Below are positions 3,229-33,789 of a DNA stretch of 64,000 nt, piece by piece. The notes beneath the pieces were generated by a model, which saw nothing but the letters and a program-made list of their open reading frames with translations, did not search any database and was not told the DNA's origin. A program made the position numbers and the translations under genes. The stretch is from Tridacna crocea (taxonomy: Eukaryota; Mollusca; Bivalvia; Cardiida; Cardiidae), in the NCBI GenBank assembly GCA_943736015.1, contig OX031057.1:37162501-37226500 (forward strand). Direction: 5' to 3'. Every line of letters begins with the position of its first letter. Positions within the stretch are counted from its first letter, which is position 1.

Positions 3229-3744
3229 GTAAGTCTTGGTGAATATCAAATCTTATATGTTATAGTCAACGAGTTAAACAAAATGATAATACACTAACTC
3301 GAATGTGAGATTCTACTTATCATTTAAAAAGAATGGCGGGCAAACTAACATCATCGACCGCTACCTTTAGCCTATATATAGTTTATGTGTCCATGTTTAG
3401 AGGTGTAGTTCGTTTTGAAATACTTATAAATACTAGAAGATAGCTCTGTGATATTTAAATCAAAAGTAGAATTGAACTGCTCATCACTATAAATTTACTC
3501 TCAATTAAACACAAAAGGGACAAAAAAAAAAACCTTTTAATATTCTTGTGTATTATCAATGAGAAGTTACGGGTTCAATGCACTGCTGAATGAAGTTTTA
3601 GGTGATGAAATGACGCATCTGTCACTTGCATATGGCAATAATACGAAAACAAAAACAGACGAGTAAAATTTGTTTCACCCAAATGAAGCCTCACCATACA
3701 TTTGATGTTACGAAAACCGTTCAGCTTTGCTCTGAGGAAACGGG

Positions 3745-3860
3745 GTTTAACGTGTCTGCAAAAACGATCGTCCATACTCAGCTTACACAGTCCCGGCAGG
3801 CTGACCTAGGTCGAAACTTTTTGCTATTGTTTAGTTTTCTGCATGTCAGAGAACCATTCT
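3745..3860 (+). repeat. Family C repeat (GGCAGGCTGACCTAGGTCGA core)
   Basis: Core GCAGGCTGACCTAGGTCGAAACTTTT followed by TTTTCTGCATGTC. Related pieces are at 4515-4640, 8150-8280, 31505-31620 and 61965-62075. The core commonly forms a short CAGCCTGCGC/GCGCAGGCTG stem. Confidence 0.65.
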
Positions 3861-3969
3861 TAACTATGACTCAGCTGGTCTGTAAACAATCCATCTTATG
3901 CGACGTTTCCCTATTTATAATGCATTACAAAGATGCATTAAACGTCCTTTTCCCTACGGATTGCTTATT

Positions 3970-12888: not shown

Positions 12889-14867
12889 TGCCGCCTGCCG
12901 GTGTAACGTTGTAAAGTGACCCCCATAGAATAATGACCCCCCGGTCATTATTTTATATAGAATATCGACTCCCCGGTCATAATATTATGACCGGGGACCC
13001 CTCACGTAGAATTGTGACCCCCTATAGAATAACGACCCCCACATACACACCCAAACTCTTACTCTAACCCTCACCCAACTAAGGTACACTTACAACATAA
13101 TTATCTCCACCGATACGCATCGGAGGTGTAATGGCACCCGTCCGTGCATGCGTCCGTCCGTACGTGCAGAATTTTTTGACCGCAACTCTCCATTCATTAT
13201 TGGGCGGAACCGATTCAAACTGGCTGGTTAGGCGCTTCCACCGCATCTGTATGGGTTCTGATTCGTCTGTACAGTACAGTATTTTCAGGGATTAAGAACT
13301 ACTACCGATGCCTATTTGTGTGGAAAGAACAAATGGTTAAGGTTTCCGACCGAGAATCACTTGCCCCTCACCGTTCTGAGTTCGAGGCCTACCAGGGTTG
13401 TGTATGGGTGTCTGGCATACACACTGTCCTACTTGGCGGTTGCATATTAGAGTGATTCTGTTGACATTTAGTCACTTTAGAGAGATAGTTATCTACGTTT
13501 CTATAATGACACTCAGATTTGGTGTTAAATAAACAGGTACCCGACAATTTGCTTTACAACAGAACGATTTCTGCTACTTTTACAATGCGCTATACGAGTC
13601 AAAATGGTTCCAATAGCTAGGGTCCATTCAGTCGCCTCATTGTATAGTATACACGCAATACTGTGCGGTGGTTGCAGTTTTATTTCTTTGATGTTAAAGG
13701 GAACCGTTCAACCACAATGGTCACTTCAGTATGCAGCGCTCGATAATACGGCTGTTTCGACTGACAGGACGGATGAGCTGCAGTTCAGAGGTGAAGTAGA
13801 AAAAAATGTAGCCTTTAAGTTGAAAACAAAATTAGTAGCATACAAAATAACGTTAAAACGAGTTATATATGTCAGCATCAGCTCCAGTAGAAACAACAAC
13901 AACAACAACAAAAACAACAACAACAACAAATAAACACGACAGTGATTTGAATCGATATACATGCAGAGTATGTTAAATTAGCAATAAGTTAGGTGGGGGT
14001 CAATATTTTATAGATAAAATCAGGAGGGGTCATTATTTTATAAGGGGGGTCAGTATTTTATAGAGAGGGGTCATTATTCTATATAAAATAATGACCGGGG
14101 GGTCATTATTCTATGGGGGTCACTTTACAACGTTACACCGGCGGCAGGTTGGAGATTGAAAAGCAGCTGGAAACTGAATATCGGTGTTGGTAGGTGGCAG
14201 GTCGGCGATCTGCCGAGTGCAGACTTCGGGGCCCCTGAAAATAAATCCGAGGCCATACATCATACAAAATAGTCATCATGACGGTTCTAATAGCACCAAA
14301 GGGACTGAGAGACTTGCCTATTGCTGGGGCTTGGGCTCTGATCTCTTGCGCTTCGGTGCCTTGTCCTTCCCCTTGCCGCTGCCTTTAGGGGCAACTTGTG
14401 GAAGGAAAACATTCTTAAAAATCAGATCCATTTATCTTGTGGTTGATAATTATAATGAACATTTTGTAGTGTGATACGAGAACAATCTAGGTTCATATAT
14501 CCCCCGTAAACCAGCCTGCCGCCGTCAGATTATTGGGCGGGCGCCGGCCGGTGGCAGTTTGAACGCCCGATCGCAGGCCGGTGTCAGGTATAAATGGCGG
14601 GTGTCCGCCAGGTCACCAGGTGGTGGCAGGTAAAATCTGACGGCTGCCGGACTGTCACGTAACTGCCACCGGCCGACGCCCTGACGACGTCCCACATCCC
14701 TCGAACTTAAGAAACTGCCTGGCGCCGCCCGGAGCCCGTCAGGCGGCCTTTTACTGGCAGTTATTTATGACCACTCTCACCGATTTGTAAAAAATCGGCC
14801 GGTGGCATGTAAGTTTAAGAATCCACCGATGTCTAAAAATCGGCAGGCGGCAGTTTCACATTGTGGC
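12889..14867. mobile_element. GC-rich TIR element, host of the 12898-14141 insertion
   Basis: The left end TGCCGCCTGCCG is complementary to CGGCAGGCGGCA at about 14851-14862. Between 14141 and 14867 the sequence is built of GGCGGCAGG / CCGGTGGCAG / ATCGGC words, unlike anything nearby. I infer an outer element split by the inner one. The left part is only about 12 bases long, so the exact limits are uncertain. Confidence 0.45.
12898..14141. mobile_element. 1,244-bp TIR element with 67-bp perfect TIRs
   Basis: Left TIR 12898-12964 and right TIR 14075-14141 are perfect inverted repeats, beginning CCGGTGTAACGTTGTAAAGT. Inside the ends, the phrase GGTCATTATTCTATAGGGGG and variants recurs several times as subterminal repeats. 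The interior has a CCGTCCGT tract, a tRNA-like B-box region near 13380 and a CAA microsatellite (13891-13929). A 109-residue frame at 13604-13933 ends in the microsatellite, matches nothing I know, and I do not call it a gene. I see no transposase, so the element is non-autonomous. Confidence 0.85.
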
Positions 14868-22293: not shown

Positions 22294-23190
22294 GGTATCA
22301 GGACATTTGCCCCCCGAACTTCTGCCCCCGGACTTTTGCTCCCGTAGGACACCTGCCCCCTGGACATTTGCCCCCGTAGGACATCTGCCCCCTTAGGACA
22401 TCTGCCCCCTGGACATCTGCCACCCGGACATTCGCCCCGTAGGACATCTGCCCCCGTAGGACATTTGCCCCCCAGACATTTGCCCCCTAGACATCTGCCC
22501 CCCGCACATTCACCCCCTCAGGACACCCCCTCCCGGACATTTGCCCTGGTAGGACATCTGCCCCTGGATATTTGCTCCCGTAGGACAACTGCCTCCTGGG
22601 AAACGAAAAGCCTCTTTTAAATGTGAAGAACTAATAACATCATGAATTTTGCTTTATTTTTCTTAAAACGCAAAAAAAGGAATTTTTCATCGGGATTTAC
22701 AGCAGGCGTGCCAGATGAGTAACTGACTCTATAGTTATCATACTGGAAGTTTGATATTAAAACTGACATCAATTAATCAGCCGAAGACTTTCAACAAAAT
22801 AGCACTTAAAGATACAATAGCTGAGAGGTCTTTTTCATATATAGTGCCGGTCAAAATTACCATGTACATTATACCTGTATACCTCAAAGTTGCTTTTTTG
22901 AGATTGTCCCTTAAAAAAGCTACACGTCCAAGTTGTTAACAAACTGAGGGGCAGATGTCCAGGGGGCAGATGTCCTATGGGGGCTTTTGTCCGGAGACAG
23001 GTGTCTGGGGGCACATGTCCTAGGGGGGGCACGTGTCCTAAGGGGGCAGATGTCTGGGGGCAGATGTCCTAGGTTGGCAGATGTCCGGGGGCAAACGTCC
23101 AGGTGGAAGGTGTCCTAGGGGGGCAAAAGTCCGGGGGCACAAGTCCGGGGGGGGCAGAAGTCCAGGGGGCAAATGTCCTAGACCCGGGAA
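22294..23190. mobile_element. Foldback element with minisatellite arms (GGACATTTGCCCCC)
   Basis: The left arm (about 22300-22600) is a tandem array of GGACATYTGCCCCC-plus-spacer units of 14-20 bp. The right arm (about 22946-23183) is the same array in inverted orientation (GGGGGCAGATGTCC). A unique 345-bp core lies between. The outer edges read GGGTATCAGGACATTTGCC and, inverted, GGGTCTAGGACATTTGCC. Long inverted ends made of short tandem units are the hallmark of Foldback-type elements. I found no clean target-site duplication and no coding region. Confidence 0.75.
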
Positions 23191-27193: not shown

Positions 27194-27629
27194 ACATATT
27201 CTTCTTCTCATCAATATTCTATTATATAATCATTATTATTGTTATCAATATCATTATTAGTATTGATAGCATTTATCATTATTAGCTTCTTTTTTTCATA
27301 GATTGTTATGTTAAGTATGCATAATTATTTGTTGCATTTTATTCAGCTTGATAATGTGAACTGATTTTTTAGCTCACCTGAGCACAACGTGCTCAGGGGT
27401 AGCTATTGTGACCGGTCATCGTCCGTCGTCCATCCGTCCGTCCGTCCATCCGTCCGTCCGTCCGTTAACAATTTCTTTAAAAATCTTCTCCTCCAAAACC
27501 AGACGGCCAATCTTGATAAAACTTGGCAGGAATGTTGCTTGGGTGAAGCTGAACAAAAATTGTTAAAAGAATTTAATTCCATCAAAAACTCTGGTTGACA
27601 TGGCAACGAAATGGCTGAAAATGGAAAAA

Positions 27630-29060
27630 TCTTTAAAAATCTTCTTGTGACAAACTATAAGGCCGGGAGCATTCATATTTTGTATGAAGCATCATTGGGT
27701 GACCCTTTACCAAATTTTTTAAAATTATTCCCCTTGGGTCATATTTGGGCTTTGCCCAGGCACACCCTATTTTACAAAGAAACAAAGAAGGAAATCTTTA
27801 AAAAATCTTCTTCTGACAAACCATAATGGCTAGAGCATTCATATTTGGTATGTAGCATTATTTGGTGATCCTCTACCAAAACTGTTAAAATTATTCCTCT
27901 GCGGTCATATTTGGGCTCTGCCCGGGCGCACCCTATTTTAAAATCTTTAGAAATCTTCTTGTGACAAAACATAAGGCTGGGGGCATTCATATTTTGTTTG
28001 AAACATCATTTGGTGACCCCTTACCAAAATTGTTAAAATCATTTCCATGGGGTCATATTTGGGCTTTGCCCGGGCGCACTCTATTTTTCATAGAAACAAA
28101 GAAGGAAACCTTTAAAACTTCTTCTGATGACGAATCATAATGGCTAGAACATTCCTTTTTAGTATGTAGCATTAACTGATGATCTTCTACCAAACTTGTT
28201 AAAATTATCCTTCTGCCATCATATTTGGGCTCTGCTCGGGCGCACCCTATTTTAAAATATTTAAAAATCTTCTTGTGACAAAACGTAAGGCCAGGAGCCT
28301 TCATATTTTGTTTGAAACATCATTGGTTGACCCTTTACTAAAATTGTTAAAAATGATTCGCCTGGGGTCATATTTGGGCTTTGCACGGGCGCACCCTATT
28401 ATACATAGAAACAAAGAAGGAAATCTTTGAAAAATCTTCTTCTGACAATTCATAATGGCTAGAGCATTTCTATTTAGTATGTAGCATTATCTGATTATCC
28501 TCTACCAAAATTATTAAAATTATTCCTGTGCGGTCAAATTTTGGCTCTGTCCAGGTGCGCCCTATTTTAGAATCTTTAAAAATCTTCTTGTTACAAACCA
28601 CAATGCCAAGAGCATTCATATTTTGTTTGAAGCATCATTTGGTGACCCCTTACCAAAATTGTTAAAATTATTCCCCTTGGGTCATATTTGGGCTTTGCCC
28701 GGGCACACCCTATTTTACATAGAAACGGAGAAGGAAACCTTTAATAAATCTTTTTCTGACAAACCGTAATGACTAGAGCATTCATATTTGCTATGTAGCA
28801 TAATCTGATAATCTTCAACCAAAATTGCAAGAATTATCCCTCTGCGGTCATATTTGGGCTCTGCCCGGGTGCACCCTATATCACATAGAAACAAAGAAGG
28901 AAATCTTTTAAAAATCTACTTGTGGCAAACCATAAGGGCTAGAGCATTCATATTTTGCATGTAGCATCATCTAGTGACACTTTATAAAGATAATTAAAAT
29001 TATCCCCTTGGGGTCATATTTGGGCTCTGTGCCCTGGTGCACACTATTTCAAATAGAATC
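27630..29060 (+). repeat. Alternating 166/148-bp higher-order tandem repeat
   Basis: The marker GGTCATATTTGGGCT and variants starts at 27737, 27903, 28051, 28217, 28366, 28532, 28680, 28846 and 29012. Steps are 166, 148, 166, 149, 166, 148, 166, 166. Two monomer types alternate: one follows the marker with a CATAGAAACAAAGAAGGAAA segment, the other lacks it. Four dimers of about 314 bp are present. Confidence 0.9.
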
Positions 29061-29084
29061 ATAGAAGGAAATCTTTTAAAATCA

Positions 29085-29473: not shown

Positions 29474-29482
29474 CTCTTGTTT
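29474..29482 (+). repeat. 9-bp target-site duplication, left (CTCTTGTTT)
   Basis: Identical to 33781-33789. It abuts the GGGTCCCTATAAA terminus of the 4.3-kb element. Confidence 0.8.
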
Positions 29483-29984
29483 GGGTCCCTATAAAGTAAG
29501 AAACGGAACCGAAACGAAACGGAACGAAACGTTACGAAACGGAACGAAACGCAACGAAACGAAACGCAACGAAACGGAACGAAACGAAACGAAATAGAAC
29601 GAAACGGAATATAACGGGAACGAAACGAAACGGAACGAAACGAAATGAAATCTAGCAGCGTTTTTTTTTTTTTTAAACTTATCTTTTTGTCTCAATTTAT
29701 CGTTTTTCTGTTGTACTGTTTCCAATTGTTTTATCCCACAGTGTAGGTAAGGCGCAAAAGGGTTATGTCACTGAATTTTTGCGATTATTTTGCATTGAAA
29801 ATCTGGTCAAAGTCAAGATTAAGCACTTTTAAAAAACGATAATCCTCTACAAGGGAGTGTGGTTTTAAGGTTGCACAAAAAACATATTAGGTGCAATTTT
29901 AAATATTTGACGTGTAGAGAAAATTTAATTTTGTTCTGTCACTATGGTATCAGAGTATTATCACAGGGCGCCGGAATATGGCGA

Positions 29985-30246
29985 GCCTGGGTAGCACAGT
30001 TGGTAGCGTACAGGACTTCAAAACATGGGTCGCCAGTTCAAATATCCATTCGACAAATTTCTTTCCAAAGATTGATGATAGTCATTGCGACAGGATGCAT
30101 TCCTCTCTCTCTCTCCAGTGATCACCGGTAGTAAGCGATTAAAAGCAGCCAGTGGCTTGGGAAAAATATTACTCTCGAAGTACTTGTAAAAAGAACTGCA
30201 GGAAAACACAGATAGGTGTAATGCAGCGATTTTGTTTGGTTTGTAT
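29985..30246 (+). mobile_element. tRNA-derived SINE, 3' truncated
   Basis: Head AGCCTGGGTAGCACAGTTGG, GTACAGGACTTCAAAAC and GTTCAAATATCC (box A/box B-like). The body TTGATGATAGTCATTGCGAC and GGAAAACACAGATAGG is shared with 32525-32830 and, weakly, 47990-48230. Confidence 0.65.
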
Positions 30247-30390
30247 TAGAGTTTAATGCCTTTTTAACAGCGTAGGTCATATCATGGCGGTCAGTGTCGC
30301 ACTAATGTGTTTCCTGGTTTTTTCACACCAGTACTGACCAGGTCCAGGTCACGAGTCTCATGCGCTAACCACTGAGCTATCCGGCCGGGC
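30247..30390 (-). mobile_element. tRNA-derived SINE, minus strand
   Basis: On the minus strand the head is CCGGATAGCTCAGTGGTTAG, then CGCATGAGACTCGTGACC. The tail is ATGATATGACCTACGCTGTT and AAAAAGGCATTAAAC, the GTTGAAA-GGCGTTAAAC type of tail found on molluscan SINEs. Confidence 0.7.
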
Positions 30391-30434
30391 CCAATGAAGC
30401 GATGCATGCAACGATACAACTCATGTTGTAAAGG

Positions 30435-30571
30435 GCGTTAAATCTTAAGACATTGTAGTAAAGAGAGAAAATGCTGGTAACGAACATTTTATCCTTTTCT
30501 TAAAACATTTTCAAAAGTACTAGTATTCTCCTTTAGGGGCGGTGAAACTCATGATTTTGTAGCAAGGGATT
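30435..30571 (-). mobile_element. Degenerate TTAA-hairpin MITE (family A)
   Basis: GAGAAAATGCTGGTAACGAACATTTTATCC centre and TTTAGGGGCGGTGAAACTCA tail. Confidence 0.6.
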
Positions 30572-30624
30572 TCTTTCTTTCATGTTTAAATCGAAAACTG
30601 AGGTCATATCTGTTCTGCAATGAG

Positions 30625-30840
30625 AGCTGTGATCGTATGGTGGTTAGTGCTTTGCGAAGTAGCCGACATTTCCGGTTCGAATCCTGGTCACGGCAGGTCT
30701 GTGACCGTCGCTATCTCGGCACAGCTTAACAATTTTTAGCTGGCCTTTGGGTTGTAAGGCGTCTTACACCACTTTTCAGACGATTTCAATTCTATGACTG
30801 CATCGGTTGACTCTGCTGACTTTTTTTATTGTTTTTACCA
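30625..30840 (+). mobile_element. tRNA-derived SINE head
   Basis: TGGTGGTTAGTGCTTTGCGA (box A region) and GGTTCGAATCCTGGTCACGG (a good box B). No intact tRNA cloverleaf: the 3' acceptor strand is absent. Confidence 0.65.
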
Positions 30841-31229
30841 CCCAAGCAATTTCATCTCTTTCCTCTTTGTTGTGCATATTGTTGAAAATGTAACACTACG
30901 ATTAGATACGAGCCTTGCTTTTGGCAAAAGGGGGTTTAATGCCTCGCAGTTATGCATGATACCAAGTAGGTCATCATATTATTATGGATACATAATTTCC
31001 CTCTTTGTTTAAAAGCCGGCTGAATCACGATGTACACTGCTCCTTTGACAGGTAGAATATTGACTAGGTAGAATATTGACTAACTAGCAAACATTTTCAA
31101 TTAAGATCAGCCTGCACAGATTGCACCATGCAGCGATACAACTGATATAATGTTTAGTTGAAACATTTTTATCTTACATCGATTGAAAAACAAGTACTTA
31201 CAACTTGTATTTATCTCTCGCTATTCTGC

Positions 31230-31376
31230 TTCCTCGGAACTAAACCAGTACTTGCGCCAAATGTGTGGGCTAATGAAAAATCCCAAAGCTGACACCCGCT
31301 CCCGTGTATCAAACTCGGGACCTGATGATTATTAGGCCGACGCTCAACCCTACGACCACGGACGCCACGCAATAAT
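31230..31376 (-). mobile_element. tRNA-derived SINE head, minus strand
   Basis: Minus strand reads GGCGTCCGTGGTCGTAGGGT, TGAGCGTCGGCCTAATAATC and GTCCCGAGTTTGATACACGG, a box A/box B-like layout with tRNA spacing. Confidence 0.55.
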
Positions 31377-31504
31377 GTTGAAAAGGGTGTTAGACACTAT
31401 ACAGTCAATAAAATCAAGCGTTGGAACATTTCAAGTATGTTTTTTTCCCAGGGTTTTAATTCTTAATTTGAACTATATTCTGTAAAAGAGAGCTTAACGA
31501 ATCC

Positions 31505-31700
31505 GTAAACAGTATCCACCCAGGTCAGCCTGCGCAGTCCCCGCAAGGTGACGTGAGCCGAAACCTTTCCCTATTGGTCACTTTTCTGCATGTCAAAGGA
31601 CCAGAGTACTTCATGTTACAGTGCAAAGTTACACACAAAAAAAGACTTCATGGATCTAAAATTGTGTGAGGACCTACTTGGTATCGTGCATCACGGAGAT
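31505..31700 (+). repeat. Family C repeat copy
   Basis: AGGTCAGCCTGCGCAGTCCC, GAGCCGAAACCTTTCCCTAT and TTTTCTGCATGTCAAAGGAC. The best preserved member of the family. Confidence 0.7.
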
Positions 31701-32003
31701 GTATTAAGCCCCCTTTTGCCGGAGCATGGCTCATTGTATATTTTGTGAACTGTAAGTTAGTATTAACTTATTTTGAAGTCGTCTTTTGGGGCTACTGTTA
31801 GTTAAAATTTCTTTATGTACTTTTTAAGAAACCTCTATTTCTATTTAAAATGAACTAGGACACAGCAAACTGGAAGGTTTCAAACAGTGACTGAAAGGGA
31901 AAAATAGTGCATAAAACTTTTGATGTATCCAGAAACCTTAAAATGAATTGGTACATATGCCGCAGACATAATTTCTCTTAGAAAAATAATTTCAAACCTA
32001 ACA

Positions 32004-32232
32004 TTTTCCAGGGTCCTGAGTGGCTCAGTAGTAAAGTGTAGGACTTGTGACCTGGAGGCATTGGGCTCAATCCTCACTGGATCCACTGGCTTTTTTGTGG
32101 CAAGATCATTCAGAACCCTAGCCAAGTACTGGTGGAACTCACAATAAATGAATCTGTGAGCTGTTGCCGTGATATAACTGAAAAATTGTTGAAAGCGGTG
32201 TTCAATCTAGAATCAGTCAATCAATCAAAATC
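32004..32232 (+). mobile_element. tRNA-derived SINE, near full length (about 229 bp)
   Basis: Head GAGTGGCTCAGTAGTAAAGT, GTAGGACTTGTGACC and GGGCTCAATCCTC. The tail is TGATATAACTGAAAAATTGT, TGAAAGCGGTGTTCAATC and the simple end CAATCAATCAA. The same head and tail recur, inverted, at 63066-63476. Confidence 0.75.
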
Positions 32233-32524
32233 GTCTGTCCCGGTCTCGAAGATTTTTTATGTATGTCTGTTTCATGCAAAAAAAAGACGTTCAATATATT
32301 TAGCCATGTTCAGTGACATAAGGTCTTCGAGGCTTCTATTTGGGATAGAAATCAAAGTGATTGAAAAACAGACAGTGCATGAAGAATGGTGATATCTGCA
32401 CAAATGTACAAAATTTAAATAAAGACTCAAAACCGGCATTCTAATCCGCCTGATATAAATGGATTATTTTTCTAAAGCATCTTGTAAGAATCCAAACCGG
32501 TTTCATTACCGGCAGTAGGTGTTA

Positions 32525-32830
32525 TCAAAAGGTCTCGGTAGCTCAGTCAGTACTGTACAGGACTTGAGAACAGATAGTCGCTGGTCCGATTCCCTACTCT
32601 GCCAATTTCTTTTCGACGACTGATGATAGTTATTGCAGTAAGATTCATTCCTCTTTCGTCAATGGCCGTTGTGTCGGCGAGGGTTATGTAGAAAAGTAGA
32701 AAATGGCTTGTAAACAACGTTATGTTGAAAACTTTTGTAAGAAATTCCAGGAAAGCACCGATAGACCTGCACTGGCAGCTGCTTTGTAATTGAAATTATG
32801 TTGAAATCTGCGTTTAACGCCATACAAAAT
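32525..32830 (+). mobile_element. tRNA-derived SINE, about 300 bp
   Basis: Head GGTCTCGGTAGCTCAGTCAG, GTACAGGACTTGAGAAC and GGTCCGATTCCC. The body TTGATAGTTATTGCAGTAAG-like segment matches 29985-30246. The tail is TTATGTTGAAATCTGCGTTT and AACGCC. Confidence 0.75.
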
Positions 32831-33602
32831 CAATCGTTCATAATCGGTTATCAGTGCATTCAACCTTGCTGTATTTGGACATGAATTTTTAATCACAGTA
32901 TTTATGGAAACAATAAACAAAATATCAACCAGACTGCGACGTATTTGCAGTACTGATGGCTGCCAAAAACCATCTTTGCCAGCCAAGGCTGACGATTCAC
33001 TACGCTACTCTACCCTTGGCGGGATTTTTACATTTCCCCCAATACGCTTTTTCATTGGATGCAGCCAGCCCTAACTGCAACGGATGAGATCGCTCGTTGC
33101 ATTTCATCTTTGATAAAAATAGATCAAGATCACTACCTTTCGAATAGAAGGCAAACATGGAAACCCACGTGGTTGTCTGCTTATCGCTTTCATGTGTATT
33201 CGTAAGCGGTTTGTTAACCGATATTTCATTGGCTTTTAGAAATATGATGTAAAGGGTGTAATAGAGGGCGCATCGCAGGAATCTCGAAATCGGGCTCAAT
33301 CAGCCAAGGTAAGATCCACGTAGTGATCGTAACCTTGGCTCCCGGAGATGGCCAGAAACATGAAGAACATTTTATTGGAGATTTATGTCATAACAAAGTA
33401 AACAATAGTCTAAGTTCACTCAAACCAACATTAAAATAAAATGACTTCATTTAAATTGTCAAAATTCACCAAAGTATCACGATCATAGTGCGCCGTCAAA
33501 ATTCTAAGTCTTACTTCGTAACAATTTCGGCAATCAAAAGTAGGTATATTTACAAAAACAAATTATGTTTTCCTTCTGCTTGATTTTGTACCAAAAATAG
33601 CA

Positions 33603-33764
33603 CTCCGTTTCGTTTCGTTCCGTTTCGTTCTCGTTCCATTCCGTTTCGTTCTATTTCGTTTCGTTTCGTTCCGTTTCGTTGCGTTTCGTTCCGTTTCGTT
33701 GCGTTTCGTTTCGTTTCGTAACGTTTCGTTCCGTTTCGTTGCGTTTCGTTTCGGTTCCGTTTCT
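33603..33764 (-). repeat. Right pentamer array of the 4.3-kb element
   Basis: CGTTTCGTTCCGTTTCGTTG-type repeats, the reverse complement of the array at 29499-29653. Irregular variants (CTCGTTCCATTCC / GGAATATAACGGGAAC, and TTCTATTTCG / CGAAATAGAA) occur at matching places in both arms, showing common descent. Confidence 0.9.
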
Positions 33765-33780
33765 CAGTTTATAGGGACCC

Positions 33781-33789
33781 CTCTTGTTT
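33781..33789 (+). repeat. 9-bp target-site duplication, right (CTCTTGTTT)
   Basis: Exact copy of 29474-29482, next to TTTATAGGGACCC. Confidence 0.8.

Follow-up and report, generated by a model that had tools for sequence, protein, structure and literature searches.

The nearest published analogue of the transposable element described here is Tm1, a Mutator/Foldback family of the root-knot nematodes (Meloidogyne), which, in the available portion of its description, has Foldback ends, target duplications of 9 base pairs (bp) and a Phantom-type transposase with a FLYWCH domain (PMC3169594). The accessible part of the account of Drosophila Tetris proposes that element as a Mutator on the basis of its duplication length and of earlier proposals (PMC4079207), and for Galileo, according to the sections of the source at hand, footprinting located one transposase site, from the sequence of which further ones were recognised among the tandemly repeated end units (PMC3688188). 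The element in question lies in a stretch of 64,000 nucleotides from the bivalve Tridacna crocea (assembly GCA_943736015.1, contig OX031057.1, positions 37,162,501 to 37,226,500 of the forward strand), here called the window, and its inverted ends are built of pentamers. It is best understood, with a probability of roughly 0.8, as a member of a coding-free, Foldback-type family of Mutator-like elements (MULEs) that is mobilised in trans by a FLYWCH-MULE encoded elsewhere. The evidence points to membership of the Mutator superfamily and suggests a transposase acting in trans, the mobilising enzyme probably being a FLYWCH-MULE.

The whole element, classed as non-autonomous and Foldback/Mutator-like from its boundaries, the alignment of its copies and their duplications, spans 4298 bp (window positions 29483..33780) and is bracketed by the exact 9-bp target duplication CTCTTGTTT, the letters of which were read twice in both the left (29474..29482) and the right copy (33781..33789). 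Its left tip, GGGTCCCTATAAA (29483..29495, plus strand), is followed by the left-type bases GTAA, and its right tip, TTTATAGGGACCC (33768..33780, minus strand), is the inverted form of GGGTCCCTATAAA and has the right-type bases CTGA next to it on its inner side, both tips resting on the letters and on tip counts across the genome. Behind the tips, Tandem Repeats Finder and unit counts place a left array of GAAAC, GGAAC and GCAAC units (29500..29650, plus strand; period 5, 29.8 copies, GAAAC) and an inverted right array (33606..33763, minus strand; period 5, 31.2 copies, CGTTT), and the building of both inverted ends from short tandem repeats, ~30 units each, is a structural trait of Foldback elements. 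The 4.3-kb element with inverted tips, pentamer ends and an exact 9-bp duplication that the initial annotation had proposed is in all these respects confirmed from the letters and by Tandem Repeats Finder. To its left, a satellite-like array of ~148-166-bp units with a 314-bp higher order (27626-29083) stops ~400 bp before the element.

The exact 13-mer tip is found 264 times in the genome (1.05 Gb, 31 contigs) as compared to 20 times for a reversed control, a count far beyond chance, and the extended left and right tip patterns, with up to 2 mismatches, have 292 and 243 matches, respectively, with none for their controls (the two sets overlap, since the patterns differ at 2 bases). Half of the tip counts, with the control subtracted, corresponds to roughly 120-146 copies. 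Forty places, taken from the first 100 of the 264 tips listed (contigs C1-C5), were read; 39 of them are pairs of facing tips, and because such pairs were chosen, broken copies are under-represented. Among the left tips on contigs C3-C5 seemingly without a partner, seven were picked by eye and two were read. With loci L069, L074 and L075 added later and L037 excluded for want of a left tip, the sample comprises 42 copies with both tips, of which 31 are flanked by an exact 9-bp duplication, five by an exact 10-bp duplication and six by neither. Further copies with the same 13-bp tips, which the initial annotation had proposed to look for together with duplications in their flanks, are thus present, and the copies read have common boundaries and, in 36 of 42, exact duplications, rather than the differing boundaries or missing duplications that it had named as grounds for giving up the element.

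The same flanks bear on the possibility that no transposon is involved at all, i.e., that a satellite-like pentamer repeat owes the likeness of its flanks to segmental duplication. One pair of loci, L043 and L044, does have common flanks and a common duplication, with identical near flanks, and is one insertion in a duplicated locus. However, left and right flanks taken from different copies agreed in 0/1720 pairs, as opposed to 36/42 agreements between the flanks of the same copy, and two copies nested in others (L027 in L035, L028 in L036) have duplications of their own, which makes such an origin hardly credible.

The ends also vary in the way that is characteristic of Foldback elements, with a crude array span of 39-235 bp on the left and 64-216 bp on the right in 37 copies, and two derivatives, L029 and L076, consist of the hairpin only, which is likewise a Foldback trait. 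L029 is 146 bp long and has no exact duplication, and L076 (C3:6566729), fetched without its left flank, is a near-perfect hairpin of ~100 bp made up of the family's two ends only, with a predicted fold of -51.1 kcal/mol (z -15.3). Of the 37 copies, 25 have GTAA/CTGA as the four bases next to the tips, 6 have GTAA/GTGA, 2 have CTGA/CTGA and 2 have GTAA/GTAA, with two other combinations seen once each. The old copies L075 and L032 have GTAA at both ends (L031 has GGAA/GTAA), but the old copies L034, L069 and L074 have CTGA at both ends, so that the old copies do not agree on one tip type. The duplications agree in length with those of Mutator-like elements (~8-11 bp, mostly 9), and together with the variable array ends they support the earlier suggestion of a Foldback-like anatomy combined with a Mutator-like duplication length.

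Alignment of 30 full-length copies, the window element included, and a consensus built without L039 show that 29 of the 30 copies diverge from the consensus by 1.3-2.3%, L039 being 4.7% diverged. In 60-bp blocks across these copies the divergence is 0.6-4.0%, and no protected block or selection on the interior was seen among them. The longest stop-free frame of the consensus is 116 amino acids (aa), and twelve MULE frames, from 12 of 20 MULE loci, gave at best a match of only E 0.11 when compared with the consensus and eight copies. Because of this low divergence, the lack of a long frame and the lack of a MULE-frame match, the family is a non-autonomous element that multiplied in a recent burst, and the statement in the initial annotation that no transposase is readable holds for the consensus as well as for the copies read. 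A coding capacity that was missed, in the form of a transposase with many introns, a decayed one or one of a novel type, might be suspected from the size of the element, which at 4.3 kb exceeds the usual length of non-autonomous ones, and from the 4.14-4.63 kb found in 30 of 39 copies with both tips, though these were mostly chosen at such tip spacing. The short consensus frames, the lack of any block conserved above the others, the unmatched MULE frames and the fact that much of the interior consists of dispersed repeats recurring elsewhere render this very improbable.

Several copies of unusual structure were considered in this context. The long copies L032, L033, L034 and L069, taken up as possible coding members, proved to be this same element, altered by insertions or by the replacement of some of its parts, their listed frames not exceeding 138 aa. 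L074 and L075 are older subfamilies, and L034, L069 and L074 are old copies, ~5% diverged. A different interior was considered for L077, the inside of which is a dispersed repeat with at least 41 other matches, none of them within 58 kb of the 80 tips compared (among 200 listed), and because this repeat recurs away from the compared tips, L077 is read as a family copy interrupted by another repeat.

A search of the genome for the MULE domain yielded 61 PF10551 matches. Three MULE copies, L066, L067 and L068 (3130, 3289 and 3157 bp), all have exact 9-bp duplications and end in 14-15-bp tandem units, and the 515-aa frame of L066 has both FLYWCH and MULE domains; at the MULE loci L049 and L052, arrays of ~15-bp units are positioned upstream of the frame. 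The view of the initial annotation that terminal inverted repeats made of pentamers would be odd for a MULE is thereby upheld in part only, as two MULE-transposase families of the same genome do have tandem-repeat ends, while the 5-base units are shorter than the ~14-16 bp of theirs. One of these families is also represented in the window, where the interval 22300-23180 has inverted ends of ~15-16-bp tandem repeats of the GGACATNTGCCCCC type, with no duplication discernible by eye, and has 491 bp in common with L049 at 83%, the array included; because of this likeness it is, on sequence grounds, a coding-free relative of that tandem-ended MULE. A second interval (12897-14142), with inverted ends of 76 bp that are 96% alike, repeated GGGGTCATTATTCTAT-type units and ~1.1 kb between them, is a candidate for another tandem-ended element. 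L067, which has the exact duplication GTTTTGTCC, is inserted in a tandem array of GGGGGTTTTGTCCTA-type units (L070, L071; C11:33398245-33401900), and this array may itself form one end of yet another family.

Several findings weigh against mobilisation of the pentamer family by a FLYWCH-MULE. None of the 61 PF10551 matches is within 92 kb of a tip among the tip matches listed (100 of 292 left, 100 of 243 right), and no pentamer arrays were seen in 20 MULE loci, 1.5 kb on each side. The full-length MULE-coding copy that the initial annotation recommended searching for did not turn up near the tips listed, nor was a transposase-bearing copy present among the copies read, other transposase families not having been searched for. 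The tips of the pentamer family are unlike those of the tandem-ended MULEs read, and of the three loci of the L049 family, L051 has no array in the stretch read. There are, in addition, the six copies without an exact duplication (L011, L016, L029, L032, L033 and L034). L016, with a 10-bp duplication containing one mismatch, and L032 and L033, with the duplication offset by ~1 base, look like near misses; L029 may have a duplication with a one-base indel; L034 is located in a GA microsatellite; and L011 has undergone rearrangement, with another piece of the family as its right flank but not as its left.

Target duplications are ~7-8 bp long in P, 8 bp in hAT and 8-9 bp in Merlin elements, and that of Galileo is shorter than the one of this family. 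The exact 9- or 10-bp duplications therefore argue against the alternative that a transposase from outside Mutator (P-type, Merlin or hAT) mobilises a Foldback-like element whose tandem ends are of independent origin: the family does not have the 7-8-bp duplications of the P superfamily, to which the Galileo type belongs, and its 10-bp cases fit less well with Merlin. Both tandem-ended coding families that were read carry a MULE domain, too, although it was the search for this very domain that led to them. Such a transposase would agree with the lack of any transposase tied to the pentamer family among the matches listed, and Foldback anatomy is known with other transposases, as in the P-type Galileo, according to the available parts of two reports (PMC3169594, PMC4079207). 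All in all it is considered quite unlikely, and a Mutator-like family served in trans by a FLYWCH-MULE is preferred.

The interior of the element is a patchwork. It includes two old short interspersed element (SINE)-type pieces of the same family, one at 29995..30223 (plus strand; ~71% to copies near other loci), which we take to be tRNA-derived from its A/B-box-like letters, and one at 32545..32860 (plus strand; 69-70% to copies beside two further loci), as well as two dispersed repeats, 30933..31124 and 31508..31710, that are inverted relatives of each other. A tRNA-like stretch (30626..30695, plus strand) scored 20.1 bits (E 1.2), under the Rfam cut-off of 29. Carried tRNA genes were considered and rejected in favour of SINE-type pieces, as ARAGORN with bacterial settings found no tRNA gene in the tRNA-like stretches, only this one match below the cut-off was obtained from Rfam, and relatives lie near unrelated loci. 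A genome search with one tRNA-like stretch, in which 40 of 4524 candidates were scored, is uninformative on other SINE copies: all 40 were 96-100% identical and are therefore copies of the family or the window itself. A short palindromic repeat of 66 bp (30447..30512), resembling a miniature inverted-repeat transposable element (MITE), has both-strand matches, ~74-82% alike, at many places in the window, and its relatives near L059 and L064 gave sub-threshold Rfam miRNA matches.

A nested MITE-like insertion (32970..33350; consensus 3504-3892, 389 bp) bears on the history of the family. Its inverted ends of 51 bp are 73% alike, and it is flanked by 8-bp direct repeats with one difference, GCCAAAAA (32962-32969) and GCCAGAAA (33351-33358). 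Copy-by-copy comparison, which left out L069, L039, L038 and L022, revealed that L031 and L075 are without this stretch at the identical point, and both are read as having the empty site. These two are the most diverged copies (9.0 and 9.5% from the consensus), and in a tree of 39 copies rooted on them the other 37 carry the stretch wholly or partly. Because of this distribution, the likelier history is that the family gained the passenger once the two most diverged lineages of the sample had branched away, with later carriers making the burst; a loss at precisely this point from both old copies is a less likely alternative.

In the mechanism proposed here for mobilisation by a FLYWCH-MULE, a transposase with FLYWCH and MULE domains, supplied in trans, would recognise the common 13-bp tip together with the adjoining pentamer array, the latter possibly offering many repeated, weak putative binding sites. 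The element would then be cut and pasted into a staggered cut, which would give rise to the 9-bp and sometimes 10-bp duplication. The interior has no coding role, its old SINE-type and MITE patchwork being copied along as a passenger. The arrays lengthen and shorten and the tip types switch between the ends, up to extreme copies in which the two ends meet as a hairpin of ~100-146 bp. With its older and younger copies, the empty site of a passenger, the hairpin products and the changing array lengths, the family is a natural series which, together with the coding MULEs of like ends, could serve to examine what number of repeated end sites is required by a Mutator-type transposase and in what manner other repeats are spread by coding-free carriers. 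It may also be, as a tentative and rather doubtful extension, that several MULE lineages of this genome have each, without a common origin of the trait, converted their ends into arrays of a motif of their own, because a FLYWCH transposase binding only a few bases would need many sites to tell the ends from the rest of the genome. The pentamer family would then be the extreme case, in which the five-base unit is nearly the whole address label, leaving the interior free to collect and multiply SINEs and MITEs.

Within the same genome, the FLYWCH- and MULE-containing family of L066-L068 resembles the pentamer family in its tandem-repeat inverted ends and exact 9-bp duplications, and differs from it in its 14-15-bp units, other tips, length of 3.1-3.3 kb and encoded 515-aa frame. 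Tm1, as far as the available text describes it, likewise has tandem ends of variable repeat number, duplications of 8-10 bp (mostly 9), members without coding, MITE-like members and a coding member of the Phantom type with a FLYWCH domain (PMC3169594). It has a unit of ~14 bp and two different 7-bp tips, in contrast to the 5-bp unit and common 13-bp tips found here, and neither its 14-bp motif C nor its 7-bp tips, as given in that text, are present in the letters of the window element (PMC3169594). In the present family, moreover, the standard member is 4.3 kb long and the copies read include no coding member. Tetris, in the part of its description at hand, has a Foldback anatomy, 8-10-bp duplications and no coding copy found, but end repeats of 220 bp and three structurally complete copies, as compared to 5-bp units and ~120-146 copies here (PMC4079207). 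Galileo, by the accessible portion of its account, has similarly long, internally repeated ends and differs in its P-type transposase (PMC3688188). Rehavkus, a Mutator relative, is described as having a 9-bp duplication and a minisatellite near an end, this minisatellite lying before the 3' end and the transposase carrying a PHD finger, unlike the arrays at both ends of the present element (PMC6446971). The literature search, covering the titles and abstract openings of the records listed, with Repbase and Dfam outside its scope, contained no description of a pentamer-ended family. Its pentamer unit, its standard form of 4.3 kb without coding and the history of its passenger set the family apart from the other cases compared; it represents a new family within an established kind, one whose superfamily we infer.

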